A stretch of 64,000 nt of DNA from Strigamia acuminata. Taxonomy: Eukaryota > Arthropoda > Chilopoda > Geophilomorpha > Linotaeniidae. The stretch covers positions 29,001 to 93,000 of the forward strand of contig CASHSZ010000028.1 in NCBI GenBank assembly GCA_949358305.1, read 5' to 3'. Both the position numbers and the translations under genes were made by a program. The notes below the pieces were generated by a model. That model made no database searches and was not told the DNA's origin. It saw only the letters and a list, made by a program, of their open reading frames with translations. Below are positions 22,701 to 40,261 of this stretch, piece after piece. How positions within the stretch are numbered: position 1 is the first letter of the stretch; each line of letters starts with the position of its first letter.

Positions 22701-25021
22701 TAAATGTTCAGAAATAGTGTTTAAACCTTAGTAGAAGGCTCCAATGTAAGTTTTAGAAACATCCAACTGATGATTTGGGAGAATAGACTTTTGATCTCAT
22801 CACAGTTGACTTAGCACAAACACCATAAGACCAATGTCTCTGAATGTTCAGAAATAGTGTTTAAACCTTAGTAGAAGGCTCCAATGTAAGTTTTAGAAAC
22901 ATCCAAGCATTAAATGTTGAAAAAAAAATTTTGACCTCATTTCACATCACAGTTGACAGCACAAACACCACAAGACTAATGTCTCTGAATGTTCAGAAAT
23001 AGTGTTTAAACCTTAGTAGAAGCCTTCAATATAAGTTTTAGCAACACCCAAGCAATAAATTTTGAAAAAAAAATTTTGAGCTCATTTCACATCGCAGTTG
23101 ACTTAGCACAAACACCACAAGTCCAATGTCTCTGAATGTTCAGAAATAGTGTTTAAACCTTAGTAGAAGGCTCCAATGTAAGTTTTAGAAACATCCAACC
23201 GATGATTTGGGAGAATAGACTTTTGATCTCATCACAGTTGACTTAGCACAAACACCACAAGTCCAATGTCTCTGAATGTTCAGAAATAGTGTTTAAACCT
23301 TAGTAGAAGCCTTCAATATAAGTTTTAGCAACACCCAAGCAATAAATTTTGAAAAAAAAATTTTGAGCTTATTTCACATCGCAGTTGACTTAGCACAAAC
23401 ACCACAAGACCAATGTCTCTGAATGTTCAGAAATAGTGTTTAAACCTTAGTAGAAGGCTCCAATGTAAGTTTTAGAAACATCCAACCGATGATTTGGGAG
23501 AATAGACTTTTGATCTCATCACAGTTGACTTAGCACAAACACCACAAGACCAATGTCTCTGAATGTTCAGAAATAGTGTTTAAACCTTAGTAGAAGGCTC
23601 CAATGTAAGTTTTAGAAACATCCAACCAATGATTTGGGAGAATAGACTTTTGATCTCATCACAGTTGACTTAGCACAAACACCACAAGACCAATGTCTCT
23701 GAATGTTCAGAAATAGTGTTTAAACCTTAGTAGAAGGCTCCAATGTAAGTTTTAGAAACATCCAACCGATGATTTGGGAGAATAGACTTTTGATCTCATC
23801 ACAGTTGACTTAGCACAAACACCACAAGTCCAATGTCTCTGAATGTTCAGAAATAGTGTTTAAACCTTAGTAGAAGCCTTCAATATAAGTTTTAGCAACA
23901 CCCAAGCAATAAATTTTGAAAAAAAAATTTTGAGCTCATTTCACATCGCAGTTGACTTAGCACAAACACCACAAGACCAATGTCTCTGAATGTTCAGAAA
24001 TAGTGTTTAAACCTTAGTAGAAGCCTTCAATATAAGTTTTAGCAACACCCAAGCAATAAATTTTGAAAAAAAAATTTTGAGCTTATTTTATATCACAGTT
24101 GACTTAGCACAAACACCACAAGACCAATGTCTCTGAATGTTCAGAAATAGTGTTTAAACCTTAGTAGAAGGCTCCAATGTAAGTTTTAGAAACATCCAAC
24201 CAATGATTTGGGAGAATAGACTTTTGATCTCATCACAGTTGACTTAGCACAAACACCACAAGACCAATGTCTCTGAATGTTCAGAAATAGTGTTTAAACC
24301 TTAGTAGAAGGCTCCAATGTAAGTTTTAGAAACATCCAACTGATGATTTGGGAGAATAGACTTTTGATCTCATCACAGTTGACTTAGCACAAACACCATA
24401 AGACCAATGTCTCTGAATGTTCAGAAATAGTGTTTAAACCTTAGTAGAAGGCTCCAATGTAAGTTTTAGAAACATCCAAGCATTAAATGTTGAAAAAAAA
24501 TTTTGACCTCATTTCACATCACAGTTGACAGCACAAACACCACAAGACCAATGTCTCTGAATGTTCAGAAATAGTGTTTAAACCTTAGTAGAAGCCTTCA
24601 ATATAAGTTTTAGCAACACCCAAGCAATAAATTTTGAAAAAAAAATTTTGAGCTCATTTCACATCGCAGTTGACTTAGCACAAACACCACAAGTCCAATG
24701 TCTCTGAATGTTCAGAAATAGTGTTTAAACCTTAGTAGAAGGCTCCAATGTAAGTTTTAGAAACATCCAACCGATGATTTGGGAGAATAGACTTTTGATC
24801 TCATCACAGTTGACTTAGCACAAACACCACAAGACTAATGTCTCTGAATGTTTAGAAATAGTGTTTAAACCTTAGTAGAAGCCTTCAATGTAAGTTTTAG
24901 CAACACCCAAGCAATAAATTTTGAAAAAAAAATTTTGAGCTTATTTCACATCGCAGTTGACTTAGCACAAACACCACAAGACCAATGTCTCTGAATGTTC
25001 AGAAATAGTGTTTAAACCTTA

Positions 25022-25026
25022 GTAGA
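25022..25026. repeat. Target-site duplication GTAGA, left copy
   Basis: Satellite sequence CTTAGTAGA breaks off here, and the right flank of the insertion resumes with GTAGAAGG at 26601. The 5-bp repeat GTAGA on both sides is the duplication expected from integrase-mediated insertion of a BEL/Pao element. Confidence 0.85.
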
Positions 25027-25873
25027 TGTAGCAAACAACCTTGGATCTCACAGGAAAAAACTGGCGAATTGGTCACCAAACTCTGGAAACCGCCCGAGAC
25101 TGTATAGTGGTTGAAGAGACAAGTTGAAATCCTCTCTCTGAGCATAAGCCTAACTTGAAGAAGGGTTAGGCCTGACTGCATGAAACTAGGCCTGACTGCA
25201 TTTAGATGAAGTGATTGGCAAAACCTCTTTAGCTACTGGGTAGAAATTCCGTGCTCCCAGGGAGGAGGAGAGCAGGCAAAGCTCTCTACTCACAAGTCAT
25301 CATGATTGTTGAAGTAAAAGAAACCCAGGAATAAATTATCCAAAGAAGGAGGAAAAATATCAACTGGTTTTAATACTTAACAACTGATAACAACTGAGTT
25401 GCTTCTTTAGCAACCTACTCTTAACAACTGGTCACCTGATTACAATAAATGTCAGTGACCAAACAATACAGATTTGAATAATAACAATAGTGCCGACAAG
25501 GTTTCCGTATATCTACAACAGATGTCAAACTTAACATAAATAAAGGCAAAACTTAACCTAACACCTTGAAAACAGTATGACCTGTGCAAACAGCACTTCA
25601 CTTAAACTTAACAGATAATTCAAAGGCTAAAACTAACATTAACTGCACTCAAAACACAATGCTGAGCCCAAACCCAATCACCACCAAAAGAGGGCGCAAC
25701 GTGTCACAGTTTTAACCCCTTAACAACCATGCAATAACAAAAGTAAAAGCTTAGATTAACATCAACTAATATTGGTAAATATACAAACAATAACTAGTAA
25801 ATATTCCCTATGTCCAGGTTCCATTAAAACCCCAAAAGAAACAATGACAGGGCACCAGTGCAGCACCAAATCT

Positions 25874-25884
25874 AAGATGGCGAC
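25874..25884 (+). promoter_or_regulatory. YY1/Pho-like motif in the solo LTR
   Basis: AAGATGGCGAC followed by CAT closely resembles the YY1/Pleiohomeotic site (AANATGGCGGC). A second similar motif lies at 26255-26268. The match is by eye and function is not demonstrated. Confidence 0.3.
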
Positions 25885-26254
25885 CATGCAACTGCTAAAA
25901 TGACGTGAATGGAGCCAGACAAGGTCGCGAGCGACTCACAGGCCTTCTCAACGATGGATCTGCGTCCTAGAACGGTCAGTACAACTTTCCCAGTGCTTGG
26001 ACATTGAAACCCGACCGATTCAACTCATTTGCAGGACCCATACGACCACGAGAGGCGTCGCAAGGCGTGCGCTCACGCCCGACGCTCGCAAACGCTCACA
26101 AACGATGTCCAACGTCCAACCAGCGACCCAAGACACCTGTGGACTACCTTAAACACCAATACAAGTTAGTATAAATTAAATTACCAGTGAAACAAGCACT
26201 AAAACTGCAATTGTGCTTATTTCAAGTTCTCCCGTTTCCCAGCTCACTTATGCT

Positions 26255-26268
26255 ATGGCGGCCATCTT
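26255..26268 (-). promoter_or_regulatory. Double-sided YY1/Pho-like motif in the solo LTR
   Basis: ATGGCGGCCATCTT reads ATGGCGGC on the plus strand and AAGATGGCCGC on the minus strand, so two overlapping YY1-like cores face each other. It lies in the presumed upstream part of the minus-strand LTR, where promoter elements would be expected. Function is inferred only. Confidence 0.3.
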
Positions 26269-26600
26269 GCCGATGCACGCCTATCTCTCTCACAAGTGAA
26301 CTGGAAACAGGAGAAAACTTATAAATACTAGAAATAACACAAACAAGTGAAAAAGACACATAAAACAATGCCAAAAGACTAAAAACACAACTTCCAAACA
26401 TTCCAGGTGTGGCAAGCGAAGTGACAACCCCCTTGAACTTCCAGGATCGTGACAACAAGGCAGCAAACCAACTGGACATGTCAGATAAGAGTTGCAAATC
26501 TATTCAAACTTGACAACAAAATTAAAAAGCCTTTTCTCTCTTTCAGAAAATAAACAACGTGAAATCTCCAGATCTTTTTGTTGCGTTCTTGCTCGCAACA

Positions 26601-32600: not shown

Positions 32601-33668
32601 AAGTTTTAGAAACATCCAACTGATGATTTGGGAGAATAGACTTTTGATCTCATCACAGTTGACTTAGCACAAACACCATAAGACCAATGTCTCTGAATGT
32701 TCAGAAATAGTGTTTAAACCTTAGTAGAAGGCTCCAATGTAAGTTTTAGAAACATCCAAGCATTAAATGTTGAAAAAAAAATTTTGACCTCATTTCACAT
32801 CACAGTTGACAGCACAAACACCACAAGACCAATGTCTCTGAATGTTCAGAAATAGTGTTTAAACCTTAGTAGAAGCCTTCAATATAAGTTTTAGCAACAC
32901 CCAAGCAATAAATTTTGAAAAAAAAATTTTGAGCTCATTTCACATCGCAGTTGACTTAGCACAAACACCACAAGTCCAATGTCTCTGAATGTTCAGAAAT
33001 AGTGTTTAAACCTTAGTAGAAGGCTCCAATGTAAGTTTTAGAAACATCCAACCGATGATTTGGGAGAATAGACTTTTGATCTCATCACAGTTGACTTAGC
33101 ACAAACACCACAAGACTAATGTCTCTGAATGTTTAGAAATAGTGTTTAAACCTTAGTAGAAGCCTTCAATGTAAGTTTTAGCAACACCCAAGCAATAAAT
33201 TTTGAAAAAAAAATTTTGAGCTTATTTCACATCGCAGTTGACTTAGCACAAACACCACAAGACCAATGTCTCTGAATGTTCAGAAATAGTGTTTAAACCT
33301 TAGTAGAAGGCTCCAATGTAAGTTTTAGAAACATCCAACCGATGATTTGGGAGAATAGACTTTTAATCTCATCACAGTTGACTTAGCACAAACACCACAA
33401 GACCAATGTCTCTGAATGTTCAGAAATAGTGTTTAAACCTTAGTAGAAGGCTCCAATGTAAGTTTTAGAAACATCCAACCAATGATTTGGGAGAATAGAC
33501 TTTTGATCTCATCACAGTTGACTTAGCACAAACACCACAAGACCAATGTCTCTGAATGTTCAGAAATAGTGTTTAAACCTTAGTAGAAGGCTCCAATGTA
33601 AGTTGTAGAAACATCCAACCGATGATTTGGGAGAATAGACTTTTGATCTCATCACAGTTGACTTAGCA

Positions 33669-33672
33669 CAAA
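33669..33672. repeat. Target-site duplication CAAA, left copy
   Basis: Satellite GCACAAA is broken after this tetramer, and the right flank resumes with CAAACACCAC at 40262. Because the LTR's last base is A, a 5-bp ACAAA duplication is also compatible. Confidence 0.85.
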
Positions 33673-35030
33673 TGTTGCTAGCAACATAAAGGAAAGCTGC
33701 TAAACGTCTTAAAAATTAGTCATCTGGAATTATTAAAAAGGGTTTTTAATATTTATCTTAGATTGGGAATTTAATTAGACACTTATTTGAATATAAGTCT
33801 TCTTTGAGTTAGTTTGAGTGAATTTCTCAGTACTGGTTGATCTGACCGGATAAATCTGGGAAGAAAAGAGTTTTTACATTAGTTATTTATCCACTTAGAA
33901 TTTATTTTCTATCTTGTTTACCTGTGTTATGCATGTTTTGATGTTTCCAAGTGTTTTCCTGTTTCCAGTCCACTATTGTCAATGTAGTGACAAGGTGTAA
34001 TGATGCTCTCAGACAGCAAAAGGGTACTAGAATGAGAAATGTATGTTATTATCAGTTTTAAGCTGTTTCAATCAATTTCTGTTTGTTTTCTGTATATTAC
34101 TAACCAATTAAGCGTTTTGTTAACTTAGATTGTGTGTAGCCTGTCTAGTGAGCTAATTTCAAGCCTTTCTATCTTCCTGCAAGTGATCTCTGTTTACATT
34201 GTCGGCCATTACTGTGGGAGTGGTCTACTTGTATCTGTAAAGAGAGGAGAAAATGTTTAATCCCAAAGAGTTTTTGTGGGTTCTGATTAATAATTAATCA
34301 CTTAATTATTATGCAATGTAAAAGTGTTAAGTTTAAGATTTATCTGTGTTGATTTATAACTTAACTTCTGCACTTACTGTAAAGTTGCCAGCTCATTGGT
34401 CTAAAATGTCTTTACTTATTCTTTTCTCTATTTTATGAGTTGTTCAGTGTGTTTTAGAGTGAATAATTTAGTTCTCAACGAGCATTGTGGTTAGAGACTG
34501 TTGTTAATGTATACTTTTGCATTTAATGTCAAATACTTGCTGTTAGGCTTATGTGTTTTCAACTATTAACTTCTACGGTAGTTTTGTTGTGCCAGCAGTA
34601 CTTATTTCTCTTTACAAGCACTTAGAGACCTCTGTAACTTTAAGTGCAAGTGTCCTTATACAATGTGGAGATAGTTACACTTGTTGTTTCTTATTATTGT
34701 TAAAGTGTGACTTCTTTGTAATATCCTCGTGATTCAATTGTAGTAGTCTTGTTAAGAATTTAGAGAATAAAATGGTTGCTTTTTATTTCTCTCCAAGTCT
34801 CATTTCTCTATACAACCAGAAAGCAATGTGCAGTGAGTAGAAAAATCCTCCTTCCTCCTCCTTGAACTCACCAGTGGCAGATCATCATGTGAAGCAGCAA
34901 GTTCAAGTCCAGTGTTTGCATTTCTTCAAGTCTTTGGCCAACTTCTGTGTATCAATTTGTGCCAAGCAGCAGTCAAGTATTGCCGCCCCTCCTTCTGGCC
35001 TGGTTGTCGCCTGCGACCTTGCCAGAAACA
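33673..35030 (+). repeat. 5' LTR of the BEL-TK element, 1358 bp
   Basis: It begins TGTTGCTAGCAACA, a perfect 14-bp palindrome, and ends CCAGAAACA, giving the canonical TG...CA ends. It corresponds base for base to 38904-40261 except G at 34092 versus A at 39323. U3 should hold the promoter, but no confident TATA-initiator pair is visible. AATAAA at 34766-34771 suggests that R ends a little downstream, leaving a U5 of roughly 240 bp with a CCTCCTTCCTCCTCC pyrimidine stretch (34847-34861). Short reading frames crossing its 3' end look fortuitous. Confidence 0.95.
34766..34771 (+). terminator. Polyadenylation signal in the 5' LTR
   Basis: This is the only well-placed AATAAA I noticed near the LTR 3' end, about 260 bp before it, followed by a T-rich stretch (TTGCTTTTTATTTC). 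In an LTR element this signal marks the R region. In the 5' copy it must be bypassed. Confidence 0.55.
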
Positions 35031-35033
35031 ATT

Positions 35034-35051
35034 TGGTACCGTGAACCCAGG
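35034..35051 (+). other. Putative primer binding site
   Basis: TGGTACCGTGAACCCAGG starts three bases after the 5' LTR, the normal place for tRNA priming, and TGG is complementary to a tRNA 3' CCA end. I do not assign the tRNA; comparison with the host tRNA set would decide. Confidence 0.6.
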
Positions 35052-35663
35052 ATTTCTTCCAGTTATCTCAGTGGACCTTCATGTGTGCTGCAAAATTCAT
35101 CAGTGGGTTTTGTTCTCAAGCTGTGCAAAGCTTTTATGTGTAAAGTGCCATTGAAGTTGTGCCACTACAGTGAAGTGTATGCTCTCGTCCGCCTTTCACA
35201 GGCAAAAAAGTGGGTTTTTCAAGTTGGATTCTCAAATTGTCAAGATGGTCAAGATGTTTTTCAACTTGGATCAAGCAAGGCTTCGAGAGTACGAGCGATC
35301 CTGCACGACAATCAATTCCAAACACAACGCAATATACATCCTACAAGAAGATTTGAAGAAATAATTATTAAGAATTATTATTTAAATAGAATAATATCCG
35401 AATTTGCTGCTGTAATCATTTCAAAGGAGTTTTTGATTAGAAACTGGTGTAGTTGGGGGGAGAAGAAGTTTAAGTCTTAACAGTTTGAATAAATTCTCGA
35501 TTCCAGTTTGTGGAATTTAGAGAATATCCAGTGAATTAGTGAATAATACCAAGCTTTAGTGTTGGTATCCCAATTTAAAACGAGTATCTAGTCAGAAACT
35601 CAATTGTGAAAATAAGAGAATTGTCAATTACCTTTAATTATTGAATTTTGGGGGTTAATTTGC

Positions 35664-35703
35664 CAATCCTGTTAACATCCCGTGTGTTTCAATCCTGTTA
35701 ACA
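35664..35703 (+). repeat. Pair of 14-bp direct repeats in the leader
   Basis: CAATCCTGTTAACA occurs at 35664-35677 and again at 35690-35703, each containing the palindrome GTTAAC. A looser third relative, CCATCCTGCTTTT, follows at about 35716. Short palindromes in a retroelement leader could act in RNA dimerisation or packaging; that is inference only. Confidence 0.5.
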
Positions 35704-35850
35704 GCTTGTGGATATCCATCCTGCTTTTGTGTGTTCAGTAAATCCTAGAGTGTAAAAGAATTAGACAATTTCTTGTTAACCAATTTAGTCAGTTAAGTTG
35801 AGTTTGAATCCTGAACTGATCTTTGAATTCTTCATTTCTCGGTGAGGATT

Positions 35851-38800
35851 ATGGCTACATTATCCGCTGCTGATCTCGAGGAAAAGGAGGTCATTTGGAA
35901 AGCAAAGGCTCAAGGAGCCGAGGATCTGCTGGGATCTTCAGTCAACATTCTAGACGGAGGAGAGCTGGAAGCCATGCAAATAACGGTTGACCAGCAATTG
36001 AGTGATCTCGCCGACGAATTGAAAGCTCTTAAAGACGAGTCAAAAAGAGAGGACTATTTAGCGGGGCTTCAACGAATTGAAGACATTAGAACCAGAGTAA
36101 ATTTATTGAAGCAAAGAGCAAAAGTGTCTGGAAAAATGGCAGGGCAATTTGGTTCCCATCCGGGACAGAATTCCAGTTTAAACCAGACGTCCGCTTCATC
36201 TAGGAGAAACACGAGATTGCCGAAAACCGACATTGCCAAATTTAGTGGCGATGCAACTGAATATAGAGGTTTTGCGAATTTATTCGAATCAGCAGTTGAT
36301 CAGAACACGGAGCTTTCGAACGTGGAAAAGCTTATATATCTGAGGTCATGCTGCACTGGGGCTGCAGAATCCGCAATCAAGTCGTACCCAATAACTGATG
36401 ACGCCTACCCATTAGCGAAAAACACATTGGAGAGTCTATTCGGTTCTGAAAACACGCAGAGAAATGCTATTTCAAAGATGATTAGGGAGTCGAAACCCGT
36501 TTTCGATCTCTACCCAATCGAGCCACTCAAAGCTCTATTCACGTCATTGGCATCTGCTGTCCGGACCATGGCGCAACTGTCTGTGTCAGTTGACACTACT
36601 GGAACGTACCTTATTCCAGAACTACTTAGAAAATTTCCACCGGAGATCTCCCAACGTTTTTACCGAAAGCATCAAGGAAAAGTTGATGATGTTAACGTTT
36701 TTCTGGACTTCGTAGCAACCGAGATACAACTGGCTGAATTGTCGGAAGAAAGCGTTCTCCTTAAGCGCGCTCATCTGAAGAAGTCAGAAAAATTTGAGAA
36801 AACTTCAAAGGAAACAAGAGAAAGACCAACTGGAACCATGTCCTCATTCGTGACTTCCGAGAATGGAAAATTGAGTATGAATTCCAAGTCAAATCCAAAC
36901 CGCAAACCCGCCTGCGCTTATTGTGATGGTGATCACGCACACGCAAATTGTGATGCGGATCTCGATGTACCAGCGAGGATCGAAATAGTGAAGAAGAAAC
37001 GACTTTGTTTCAACTGCTTGAGATATAACCACACAGCCAAAGAATGTACCGTGAAGTTTTGTTGTCGCTTGTGTGGTGGAAGACATCACACATCGATCTG
37101 CAACAAAAACAACAAAGAAAAAGCGATTACACCAAAAGAAGAAAACGTGTCTACTAATGTATCGCTTACCGAGTCGGTGGAGATTCAACTGATGGTCTTC
37201 ACTGCTCTTTTTGTGAAGAAAAATGGAGACATGTACCCCGTCCGCGGATTACTAGATCCAGGAAGCCATCGCTCCTACGTCACGAAGAGACTAGTAAATA
37301 AATTCCGGATGCAAAAGATCGAGACACTACACACGATGACACAGTGTCTGCTCAACAAAAAGCCAGTTCCGACGACACATGATGTCTTTAGATTCGAACT
37401 ACAATCAAGACACGGAACAAAAAAGACATCAATCCTTGCATTAGAAACCGACACACTCCCGAAAGTCAAAGGGATAATTGGAGCAGAAGCCATAAAGCAA
37501 GTCCAATCACTCGGACTTGAGATGGCTGAGATACATCCGTCAGAATCGGAAGACATTGACGTCTTATTAGGAAGCAACGCATGGTGGAAGATTTGTCAAG
37601 GTGGAAGCCGAAAAATCAACGACGAGTTGGGATTAATGGAGACAATTTTTGGGTGGATTCTAAACGGTCGACTGAAACCAAACAACCCGCTTGAAGAAAA
37701 CATGGCAGCGTGCAACATTTCTTGCATGGCGGTCGAGTCCAAAGAAGAAGTGATCTCAAATCAACCTGAAAATGACGAAAACAAAATAGTCCAATTAATT
37801 CCGAAATCACTGCCCAACATGAATGGCGAACCCGGTGTGAATAAACAGACAGACGTCACACCTTCTTGTTTTGCCGCGAGCCTCTCCAGTGGTCTGGAGA
37901 AAGAGGAACTGGACACCACCCTCCAAAAAACGAAAAAGTCGTTCAAGGATGGAGGATTGGTCAACAGAACTCCAAGCTCGGACATGAAGCCGGAATTACG
38001 AGGGCGAAATCAGTTAGAGTCAGGGAGAAAGAACGTCGAATTACTTACAAACCAAGTGCCCAGTTTACCCAAATTGTGTGCAATCGTGAGATGGAGTGGA
38101 AACGTGATTCTGAATTTCTGGAAAAAGAAAATTGATTTGTCAACCAATCAAAAGGGAATTCATCTCATCATTGGTCCAATGTATGCGGGGAAAACGACCA
38201 AGTTATTGAAGCTTTTAGAAAAGGAAGAGAAGACGTCGTCCCTGCTAATTAAACACTCCAATGACGATCGTTACAGTAAAACCGAAGTCGTGACCCACGA
38301 CGGTCATCGACGAGAAGCAATCGCGACCAGTAGCCTAACCAATGCTGTGGAAAAAACGAAATTAGTGAAGACAATCGGAATTGACGAAGGACAGTTTTTT
38401 CCCGACATTTTTACTTTTTCAAATGAAATGGCTGAGCAAAAGAAAAAGGTAATAGTCGCCGCATTAGACGTCGACTTCAAGAGGAAGCCATTTGATCAGA
38501 TATCCGAGTTAGTTCCACTAGCCGAGTCTGTTGTGAAACTACAAGCAAAATGTTATTTTTGCGGAGATAAAGCTGAATTTTCAAGACGAATTTCGCACGA
38601 AACCCGAGTCAAGATGATAGGAGGGATCGACAAATACAAACCAACCTGTCGAGTATGTTTCTCAAAGCCCATGAAGTCCCTAGAGACGAAAAGGAAAATC
38701 ATCAACGGAATTATTCGACTTAGTTGTATGATTGTCAACCGAAGAATACCTCCGTGGATACCAAATTTGATCCGTCAAAGAATCATGCCACCCAGAGTGG

Positions 38801-38868
38801 AATACGAAAAGGTGAAAGAGGTCTCCCAAATATTATCATCAAAGACCAGAAGTAATCGAACTAAATGA
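35851..38868 (+). CDS. Gag-protease-thymidine kinase fusion polyprotein (BEL/Pao)
   Basis: Start: ATG at 35851 has A at -3 and G at +4; an upstream GTG at 35842 is in frame but unlikely. 1005 residues. About 40-95 is charged and helical, probably coiled coil. About 123-275 is a DUF1759-like BEL Gag core beginning LPKTDIAKFSGD. Three CCHC knuckles follow: C355-C358-H362-C367, C386-C389-H394-C399 and C405-C408-H412-C417. About 445-606 is the BEL aspartic protease region with D469-P-G-S, DVLLGSNAWW (570-579) and FGWILNG (600-606). Residues 607-768 form a linker without a clear domain. About 769-939 is a TK1-type kinase that would phosphorylate thymidine to dTMP: P-loop GPMYAGKTT (775-783), HD 816-817, IDEGQFFPD (844-852, E846 the expected catalytic base), VPLAESVVKL (888-897), zinc cysteines C901, C904, C933, C936, and Y929 in the lasso. 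The basic tail 940-1005 is unrecognised. No RT, RNase H or integrase. Odd points: DPG instead of DSG/DTG, and VD instead of GT in the LDGTF motif (873-876). Confidence 0.92.
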   Translation: MATLSAADLEEKEVIWKAKAQGAEDLLGSSVNILDGGELEAMQITVDQQLSDLADELKALKDESKREDYLAGLQRIEDIRTRVNLLKQRAKVSGKMAGQFGSHPGQNSSLNQTSASSRRNTRLPKTDIAKFSGDATEYRGFANLFESAVDQNTELSNVEKLIYLRSCCTGAAESAIKSYPITDDAYPLAKNTLESLFGSENTQRNAISKMIRESKPVFDLYPIEPLKALFTSLASAVRTMAQLSVSVDTTGTYLIPELLRKFPPEISQRFYRKHQGKVDDVNVFLDFVATEIQLAELSEESVLLKRAHLKKSEKFEKTSKETRERPTGTMSSFVTSENGKLSMNSKSNPNRKPACAYCDGDHAHANCDADLDVPARIEIVKKKRLCFNCLRYNHTAKECTVKFCCRLCGGRHHTSICNKNNKEKAITPKEENVSTNVSLTESVEIQLMVFTALFVKKNGDMYPVRGLLDPGSHRSYVTKRLVNKFRMQKIETLHTMTQCLLNKKPVPTTHDVFRFELQSRHGTKKTSILALETDTLPKVKGIIGAEAIKQVQSLGLEMAEIHPSESEDIDVLLGSNAWWKICQGGSRKINDELGLMETIFGWILNGRLKPNNPLEENMAACNISCMAVESKEEVISNQPENDENKIVQLIPKSLPNMNGEPGVNKQTDVTPSCFAASLSSGLEKEELDTTLQKTKKSFKDGGLVNRTPSSDMKPELRGRNQLESGRKNVELLTNQVPSLPKLCAIVRWSGNVILNFWKKKIDLSTNQKGIHLIIGPMYAGKTTKLLKLLEKEEKTSSLLIKHSNDDRYSKTEVVTHDGHRREAIATSSLTNAVEKTKLVKTIGIDEGQFFPDIFTFSNEMAEQKKKVIVAALDVDFKRKPFDQISELVPLAESVVKLQAKCYFCGDKAEFSRRISHETRVKMIGGIDKYKPTCRVCFSKPMKSLETKRKIINGIIRLSCMIVNRRIPPWIPNLIRQRIMPPRVEYEKVKEVSQILSSKTRSNRTK

Positions 38869-38903
38869 TGGGTTGTTCGCACTTTCTTTTCGCCGGCAAT
38901 CTA
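38869..38903 (+). other. Short gap before the 3' LTR, without an obvious polypurine tract
   Basis: These 35 bp between the stop codon and the 3' LTR are not purine-rich; they contain ACTTTCTTTTCGCCGGCAATCTA. A plus-strand primer, normally a purine run abutting the LTR, is thus not evident. In another frame the segment reads LFAGNLCC then stop across the LTR edge, which may be a trace of the end of a lost BEL pol gene; that is a weak inference. Confidence 0.45.
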
Positions 38904-40261
38904 TGTTGCTAGCAACATAAAGGAAAGCTGCTAAACGTCTTAAAAATTAGTCATCTGGAATTATTAAAAAGGGTTTTTAATATTTATCTTAGATTGGGAA
39001 TTTAATTAGACACTTATTTGAATATAAGTCTTCTTTGAGTTAGTTTGAGTGAATTTCTCAGTACTGGTTGATCTGACCGGATAAATCTGGGAAGAAAAGA
39101 GTTTTTACATTAGTTATTTATCCACTTAGAATTTATTTTCTATCTTGTTTACCTGTGTTATGCATGTTTTGATGTTTCCAAGTGTTTTCCTGTTTCCAGT
39201 CCACTATTGTCAATGTAGTGACAAGGTGTAATGATGCTCTCAGACAGCAAAAGGGTACTAGAATGAGAAATGTATGTTATTATCAGTTTTAAGCTGTTTC
39301 AATCAATTTCTGTTTGTTTTCTATATATTACTAACCAATTAAGCGTTTTGTTAACTTAGATTGTGTGTAGCCTGTCTAGTGAGCTAATTTCAAGCCTTTC
39401 TATCTTCCTGCAAGTGATCTCTGTTTACATTGTCGGCCATTACTGTGGGAGTGGTCTACTTGTATCTGTAAAGAGAGGAGAAAATGTTTAATCCCAAAGA
39501 GTTTTTGTGGGTTCTGATTAATAATTAATCACTTAATTATTATGCAATGTAAAAGTGTTAAGTTTAAGATTTATCTGTGTTGATTTATAACTTAACTTCT
39601 GCACTTACTGTAAAGTTGCCAGCTCATTGGTCTAAAATGTCTTTACTTATTCTTTTCTCTATTTTATGAGTTGTTCAGTGTGTTTTAGAGTGAATAATTT
39701 AGTTCTCAACGAGCATTGTGGTTAGAGACTGTTGTTAATGTATACTTTTGCATTTAATGTCAAATACTTGCTGTTAGGCTTATGTGTTTTCAACTATTAA
39801 CTTCTACGGTAGTTTTGTTGTGCCAGCAGTACTTATTTCTCTTTACAAGCACTTAGAGACCTCTGTAACTTTAAGTGCAAGTGTCCTTATACAATGTGGA
39901 GATAGTTACACTTGTTGTTTCTTATTATTGTTAAAGTGTGACTTCTTTGTAATATCCTCGTGATTCAATTGTAGTAGTCTTGTTAAGAATTTAGAGAATA
40001 AAATGGTTGCTTTTTATTTCTCTCCAAGTCTCATTTCTCTATACAACCAGAAAGCAATGTGCAGTGAGTAGAAAAATCCTCCTTCCTCCTCCTTGAACTC
40101 ACCAGTGGCAGATCATCATGTGAAGCAGCAAGTTCAAGTCCAGTGTTTGCATTTCTTCAAGTCTTTGGCCAACTTCTGTGTATCAATTTGTGCCAAGCAG
40201 CAGTCAAGTATTGCCGCCCCTCCTTCTGGCCTGGTTGTCGCCTGCGACCTTGCCAGAAACA
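38904..40261 (+). repeat. 3' LTR of the BEL-TK element, 1358 bp
   Basis: It starts with the same TGTTGCTAGCAACA palindrome and ends CCAGAAACA, then satellite resumes with CAAACACCAC. Reading it against 33673-35030 I find one substitution (A at 39323 against G at 34092) and no length change. A 67-codon frame running from this LTR into the satellite at 40262 is a junction artefact. Confidence 0.95.
39997..40002 (+). terminator. Polyadenylation signal in the 3' LTR
   Basis: AATAAA at the position equivalent to 34766. It is the probable signal for 3' end formation of the element's transcript, with cleavage expected some 10-30 bp further on. Confidence 0.6.

Follow-up and report, generated by a model that had tools for sequence, protein, structure and literature searches.

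A thymidine kinase of the TK1 type lies in frame behind Gag in a complete LTR element that spans positions 33673–40261 of the window, by which we mean the whole 64,000-nt stretch of DNA analysed here. The predicted Gag–(protease-like)–thymidine kinase fusion occupies the position of Gag–Pol (Table 1). With moderate confidence, we favour the interpretation that the element is a BEL-type LTR retrotransposon, young and non-autonomous, which is mobilised in trans and delivers a presumably active thymidine kinase together with its Gag. A single open reading frame (ORF) fills most of the internal region; the earlier note had called it unbroken, and it indeed runs for 1005 codons to its stop. A stretch of 1008 stop-free codons would arise by chance with a probability of about 5e-31 given the base composition of the element, or 4e-28 given that of the ORF itself, and the remaining five frames of the internal region stay free of stops for at most 149, 77, 106, 82 and 119 codons. 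The kinase is in frame with Gag, requiring neither frameshift nor readthrough. Codon usage compared between gag–pro and the kinase (r 0.68) was uninformative, as it had no control. A separate 177-aa ORF (34947–35480) that spans the boundary between LTR and leader has no Pfam match and is probably due to chance.

Table 1 Features of the thymidine kinase element and its borders, as positions in the window
Feature	Position	Strand	Basis
Target-site duplication, left copy CAAA	33669..33672		Flank comparison
5' LTR, 1358 bp, TG...CA ends	33673..35030	+	LTR–LTR comparison
Leader, 5' LTR to ORF	35031..35850	+	Sequence
Candidate primer binding site TGGTACCGTGAACCCAGGA	35034..35052	+	Position and initial TGG only
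Single ORF, 1005 aa: Gag, protease-like, linker, thymidine kinase, tail	35851..38868	+	ORF listing, translation
DUF1759 (BEL Gag), residues 131–272	36241..36666	+	Pfam, 2e-17
Cys/His zinc knuckles of Gag, residues ~354–419	36910..37107	+	Alignment to P0002, P0003
BEL protease-like region, residues ~441–606, triad DPG not D[S/T]G	37171..37668	+	Alignment to BEL proteins
Linker, residues 607–767, without recognised domain	37669..38151	+	Profile and BEL protein comparison
Thymidine kinase (TK1 type), residues 770–937	38158..38661	+	PF00265 2.6e-54, PDB match, fold, conservation
C-terminal tail, residues 939–1005, predicted helix then low confidence, without Pfam match	38665..38865	+	Pfam, model
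Stretch ahead of 3' LTR, 35 nt, without polypurine tract	38869..38903	+	Sequence
3' LTR, 1358 bp	38904..40261	+	LTR–LTR comparison
Target-site duplication, right copy CAAA	40262..40265		Flank comparison

The two LTRs begin TGTTGC, finish GAAACA and differ at one position in 1358 bp (34092 G, 39323 A); their first 14 bases (33673–33686 in the 5' copy), TGTTGCTAGCAACA, form a perfect palindrome. The candidate primer binding site starts with TGG 3 nt past the 5' LTR, and no matching tRNA was assigned to it; tRNA and Rfam scans gave no matches. The 35 nt that separate the stop codon from the 3' LTR contain no polypurine tract; the closest run of at least 7 purines ends 82 nt upstream. Where the tract would be expected, 38869–38903 holds the pyrimidine run CTTTCTTTTC.

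The window is almost wholly tandem satellite in 140-bp units, with a 420-bp period as well. The array covers 56–33672 and 40260–64000, where 420-bp and 280-bp periods accompany the 140-bp unit, and local variants of 95, 180 and 235 bp occur. By k-mer content, two stretches depart from the satellite (25014–26599 and 33660–40259), the second being the thymidine kinase element. Its target-site duplication can alternatively be read as 5-bp ACAAA if the LTR end is set one base earlier, which shortens the LTR by that base. When the element is taken out together with one duplicate, the joined flanks yield a satellite 50-mer of which the flanks (56 kb examined) contain 195 exact copies, or 379 at up to 3 mismatches. 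Because the LTRs are near-identical, a target-site duplication is present and the empty site recurs 195 times exactly in the flanks, the element is a recent, real retrotransposition into a pre-existing satellite array. The earlier note had treated the kinase as part of the element and not an assembly join; the boundaries, the LTR pair, the duplication and the satellite empty site rule out a join at this locus, and the LTRs, the duplication and the satellite context extend what that note had observed. An assembly or chimera artefact might be suspected in satellite DNA, which is hard to assemble, yet the one uninterrupted frame, matching LTRs, target-site duplication and exact empty site make it barely credible. 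The same features bear on domestication, in which a fused Gag–thymidine kinase would serve the host and its LTR context would be incidental. An intact frame with conserved enzyme residues would suit such a gene, but near-identical LTRs, the duplication and the position in satellite are those of a recent mobile insertion rather than an old resident gene, and we consider domestication very unlikely.

The satellite holds a second insertion, of 1574 bp (25027–26600), which on the minus strand begins TGTTGCGAGCAA and ends CA. GTAGA is duplicated on both its sides, and its joined 50-mer is an exact satellite empty site with 210 copies. It looks like a solo LTR. Membership in the same family as the thymidine kinase element is unproven: identity to the LTR of that element is 0.448, against 0.412–0.465 for 15 mononucleotide shuffles, and the resemblance is weak, comprising short matches only (best E 3e-4) and similar first bases.

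The TK1 profile matches residues 770–937 (PF00265, 2.6e-54), and the motifs lie exactly where the earlier note had placed them: the P-loop GPMYAGKTT at 775–783, IDEGQFFPD at 844–852, the cysteine pairs C901/C904 and C933/C936, and Y929. The residues that we take to be important in TK1, namely the P-loop lysine, the Asp of DDRY, the catalytic Glu846, the four zinc cysteines and the lasso Tyr929, are all kept. Among 18 phmmer matches to PDB sequences, human TK1 was the best (4.8e-43); NCBI models of bacterial and archaeal thymidine kinases matched at 1.4e-43, but, at 149 bits, fell short of the 183 bits set as their curated threshold. The structural model of the domain (pLDDT 83) superimposes on the best human TK1 chains with a TM score of 0.95 by target length and an rmsd of 1.3–1.4; by query length the score is 0.61, because of the tails. 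A protein search returned 1804 matches, the best 120 of which, at 41–52% identity, come from animals, protists, poxviruses and metagenomes.

We aligned the domain with 49 other thymidine kinases (48 of the best 120 plus P0004, hand-picked for spread), to which its identity reaches at most 53%. The element retains 32 of the 34 columns conserved in at least 98% of these 49, 24 of the 32 conserved at 90–98%, and 35 of the 102 conserved at less than 90%. Its invariant-column score is 0.941, with a lower value in one other row only of the 49 (P0067, 0.895), and its agreement at variable columns is the lowest among the 12 rows listed. The altered invariants are E784K, which adjoins the P-loop, and G864K, with T875D as a further oddity. 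Divergence appears to spare the active site, and the kinase is intact-looking by its residues. In the tree, its end branch is the longest (2.99, against a median of 0.41) and it has no supported neighbour, the bootstrap not having settled; a donor could not be placed by phylogeny on so long a branch without a supported neighbour. The apparent selection signal need not stem from the period since the kinase joined the element.

These comparisons weigh on a further explanation, that an LTR element recombined a single time with a host thymidine kinase mRNA, as in a gag-fusion transducing retrovirus that lacks pol. The kinase would then be a passenger without a role, and its conservation would date from host selection before capture. 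The single copy seen and the lack of a fusion relative in collections poor in eukaryotic DNA agree with this, as does documented host-gene capture, for instance by crocodilian endogenous retroviruses (ERVs); in the excerpts of PMC4299795, however, the ORFs captured by those ERVs are under purifying selection, which leans the opposite way. A passive transduced gene would also predict a near-identical host thymidine kinase, whereas the domain shares no more than 53% identity with any of the 49 compared, has the longest branch and keeps most invariant residues. For the capture to be fresh, the TK1 of the host would have to be just as divergent; the distance from the kinases compared would suit either a divergent host or a capture that is older. 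We regard the passenger explanation as possible, albeit doubtful.

The region ahead of the kinase resembles BEL proteins. The earlier note had proposed a BEL/Pao element with Gag, zinc knuckles and a BEL protease, and had pointed to DUF1759 and DUF1758; the Gag assignment held through DUF1759 (Table 1), whereas DUF1758 was marginal (scanning a piece gave 0.045, which misses the cut-off, and the whole protein gave no match at E values up to 1). Likewise, the knuckles align with P0002 and P0003, but the zf-CCHC profile stayed below its cut-off (0.14 with the full-length protein and 0.029 with a piece of it). Residues 119–638 share 27% identity with the BEL protein P0002 over 560 columns, in an alignment that runs through the protease to its GWILNG/GWVISG end, and residues 91–630 share 27% with P0003 (Xenia) over 561 columns, knuckles and protease-like part included. 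The protease is assigned because of this alignment to BEL proteins, and its assignment appears weaker than that of Gag. The motif L-L-D-x-G is kept in all seven aligned proteins, with x being Pro here and Ser in two of the relatives; because the active-site triad is DPG, it is not clear that the protease works. An AlphaFold model of the region from 7 sequences is of mid confidence (pLDDT 67) and had no PDB match at E ≤0.001; its best matches, from E 1.7e-3, were retropepsin-like Ddi1 domains (TM 0.3–0.4 by query, 0.5–0.6 by target). With neither RT nor integrase present, the proposed membership in BEL/Pao comes from the Gag and protease resemblance only.

The absence of RT, RNase H and integrase, already remarked in the earlier note, was confirmed by tblastn searches of the window with six BEL proteins (P0002, P0003, P0005, P0006, P0007 and P0008). 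All six matched the gag or gag–protease part (E 3e-21 to 2e-46), none revealed a pol domain, and four further matches were at chance level (E 2.7–9.6). Five of these queries, all but P0007, contain pol domains in the precomputed Pfam list. Nor was pol found in the other reading frames or in the rest of the window, with short stop-free runs and chance-level matches only. Homology to BEL proteins ends just past the protease, near residue 638, where RT would start. One might suppose that a formerly autonomous, kinase-bearing BEL element lost pol from this copy by internal deletion. In LTR elements, gag and pol are usually encoded by one or two ORFs (PMC3118150, in excerpt), the kinase sits where pol would begin, and bdelloid rotifer elements carry a dUTPase between protease and RT (PMC5408684, in excerpt). 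Against this, the ORF has its own stop 35 nt ahead of the 3' LTR, and no convincing match to a pol remnant was detected in the linker or tail (best E 0.57), so we consider such a deletion quite unlikely.

How might an element of this kind replicate? In the model that we favour, of a non-autonomous element mobilised in trans, RT and integrase would be borrowed, because no pol was found, and would be supplied by an autonomous BEL relative, while the Gag of the element joins or forms virus-like particles. Thymidine kinase produces dTMP by salvage. The fused TK1 would travel with Gag, phosphorylate thymidine and raise local dTMP and dTTP, and the extra dTTP would favour reverse transcription in cells in which the supply is low; retroviral dUTPase has been argued to give reverse transcription a comparable benefit. 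Because the fusion is in frame, with no frameshift or readthrough, each Gag made would carry the kinase unless cleaved, and Gag would bring the enzyme along. Because the domain is uninterrupted, we infer retroviral-type transduction as the origin of the kinase, with a cellular (or viral) TK1 mRNA as its source. The points against this model are the one copy, with neither an autonomous partner nor a second fusion found in collections poor in eukaryotic DNA, the missing polypurine tract, the primer site without an assigned tRNA, the DPG triad, an invariant-column score lower than in all but one of the 49 other rows, the E784K, G864K and T875D changes, and a kinase score below the NCBI model cut-off.

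The Gag–thymidine kinase element is known from one copy, and no autonomous partner was seen in collections poor in eukaryotic DNA. A word-based protein search, which scored only the 7993 candidates with the most shared words, gave 7 proteins, and no second Gag–thymidine kinase protein was found among those candidates, again in collections poor in eukaryotic DNA; P0004, from this search, is an oomycete thymidine kinase without a listed Gag domain. A long-protein search with residues 750–1005 gave no match, a weak negative because it missed the known kinase P0004 too. Viral and prokaryotic contigs, probed with one protein and six peptide patterns each, which reach close relatives only, yielded no Gag–thymidine kinase. 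Because these collections hold little eukaryotic DNA, the lack of relatives is weak evidence. In the open-licence PMC literature, no thymidine kinase-bearing LTR retrotransposon appeared among the matches listed for thymidine kinase, gene capture, non-autonomous elements and dUTPase, and the word 'kinase' is absent from the retrieved portion of PMC6431247. Precedents exist for the parts, in excerpts of the cited papers: Gag-only elements that jump, as does TR-GAG, which encodes Gag alone and transposes (PMC8704663), a dUTPase after the protease, and host genes that were captured. Among the matches listed, none combined these parts.

We speculate, as a tentative extension, that there is a persisting family of pol-less BEL elements in which a Gag-packaged thymidine kinase, kept by selection, has taken the place of the replication enzymes; such elements would borrow RT and integrase from relatives and contribute dTTP. 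If true, this would be a division of labour between retroelements that is based on nucleotide supply. The enzyme of nucleotide metabolism that the excerpts cited here report from retroelements is dUTPase; within that literature, thymidine kinase would be the first enzyme found in a retroelement that makes a dNTP precursor. A pol-less element with such a kinase would imply that selection for precursor supply can operate on the template and not on the polymerase, and it would make dNTP limitation in retrotransposon evolution directly testable.

Among known systems, BEL/Pao LTR retrotransposons (PMC3118150, in excerpt) share with this element the DUF1759 Gag, the knuckles and a protease-like region in one frame, the 27% identity and the TG...CA LTRs; the element differs in its DPG triad and in having TK1 in place of RT, RNase H and integrase, none of which was detected. 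TR-GAG and other plant non-autonomous LTR elements, as described in the available part of PMC8704663, have LTRs, a single gag-containing ORF and no pol, and must likewise be mobilised in trans; TR-GAG, however, belongs to the copia family, whereas our element has a BEL-type Gag and an enzyme domain. The rotifer dUTPase elements and TelKA2n (PMC5408684, in excerpt) resemble it in having a nucleotide-metabolism enzyme right after the protease, and TelKA2n is also a derivative missing most of pol, with an env-like ORF. In the rotifer elements, by contrast, the dUTPase stands beside RT and does not replace pol, and both the enzyme and the retroelement lineages are others. Crocodilian ERVs with KIT-ligand or nectin3 (PMC4299795, in excerpt) offer a parallel in host-gene capture, but these are vertebrate ERVs and the captured genes are not those of nucleotide salvage. 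With the TK1-type kinases of animals, protists and poxviruses (PF00265), the domain shares its full extent, P-loop, catalytic Glu, lasso Tyr and zinc Cys at 41–53% identity, and it is set apart from them by its fusion behind Gag and by E784K, G864K and T875D.
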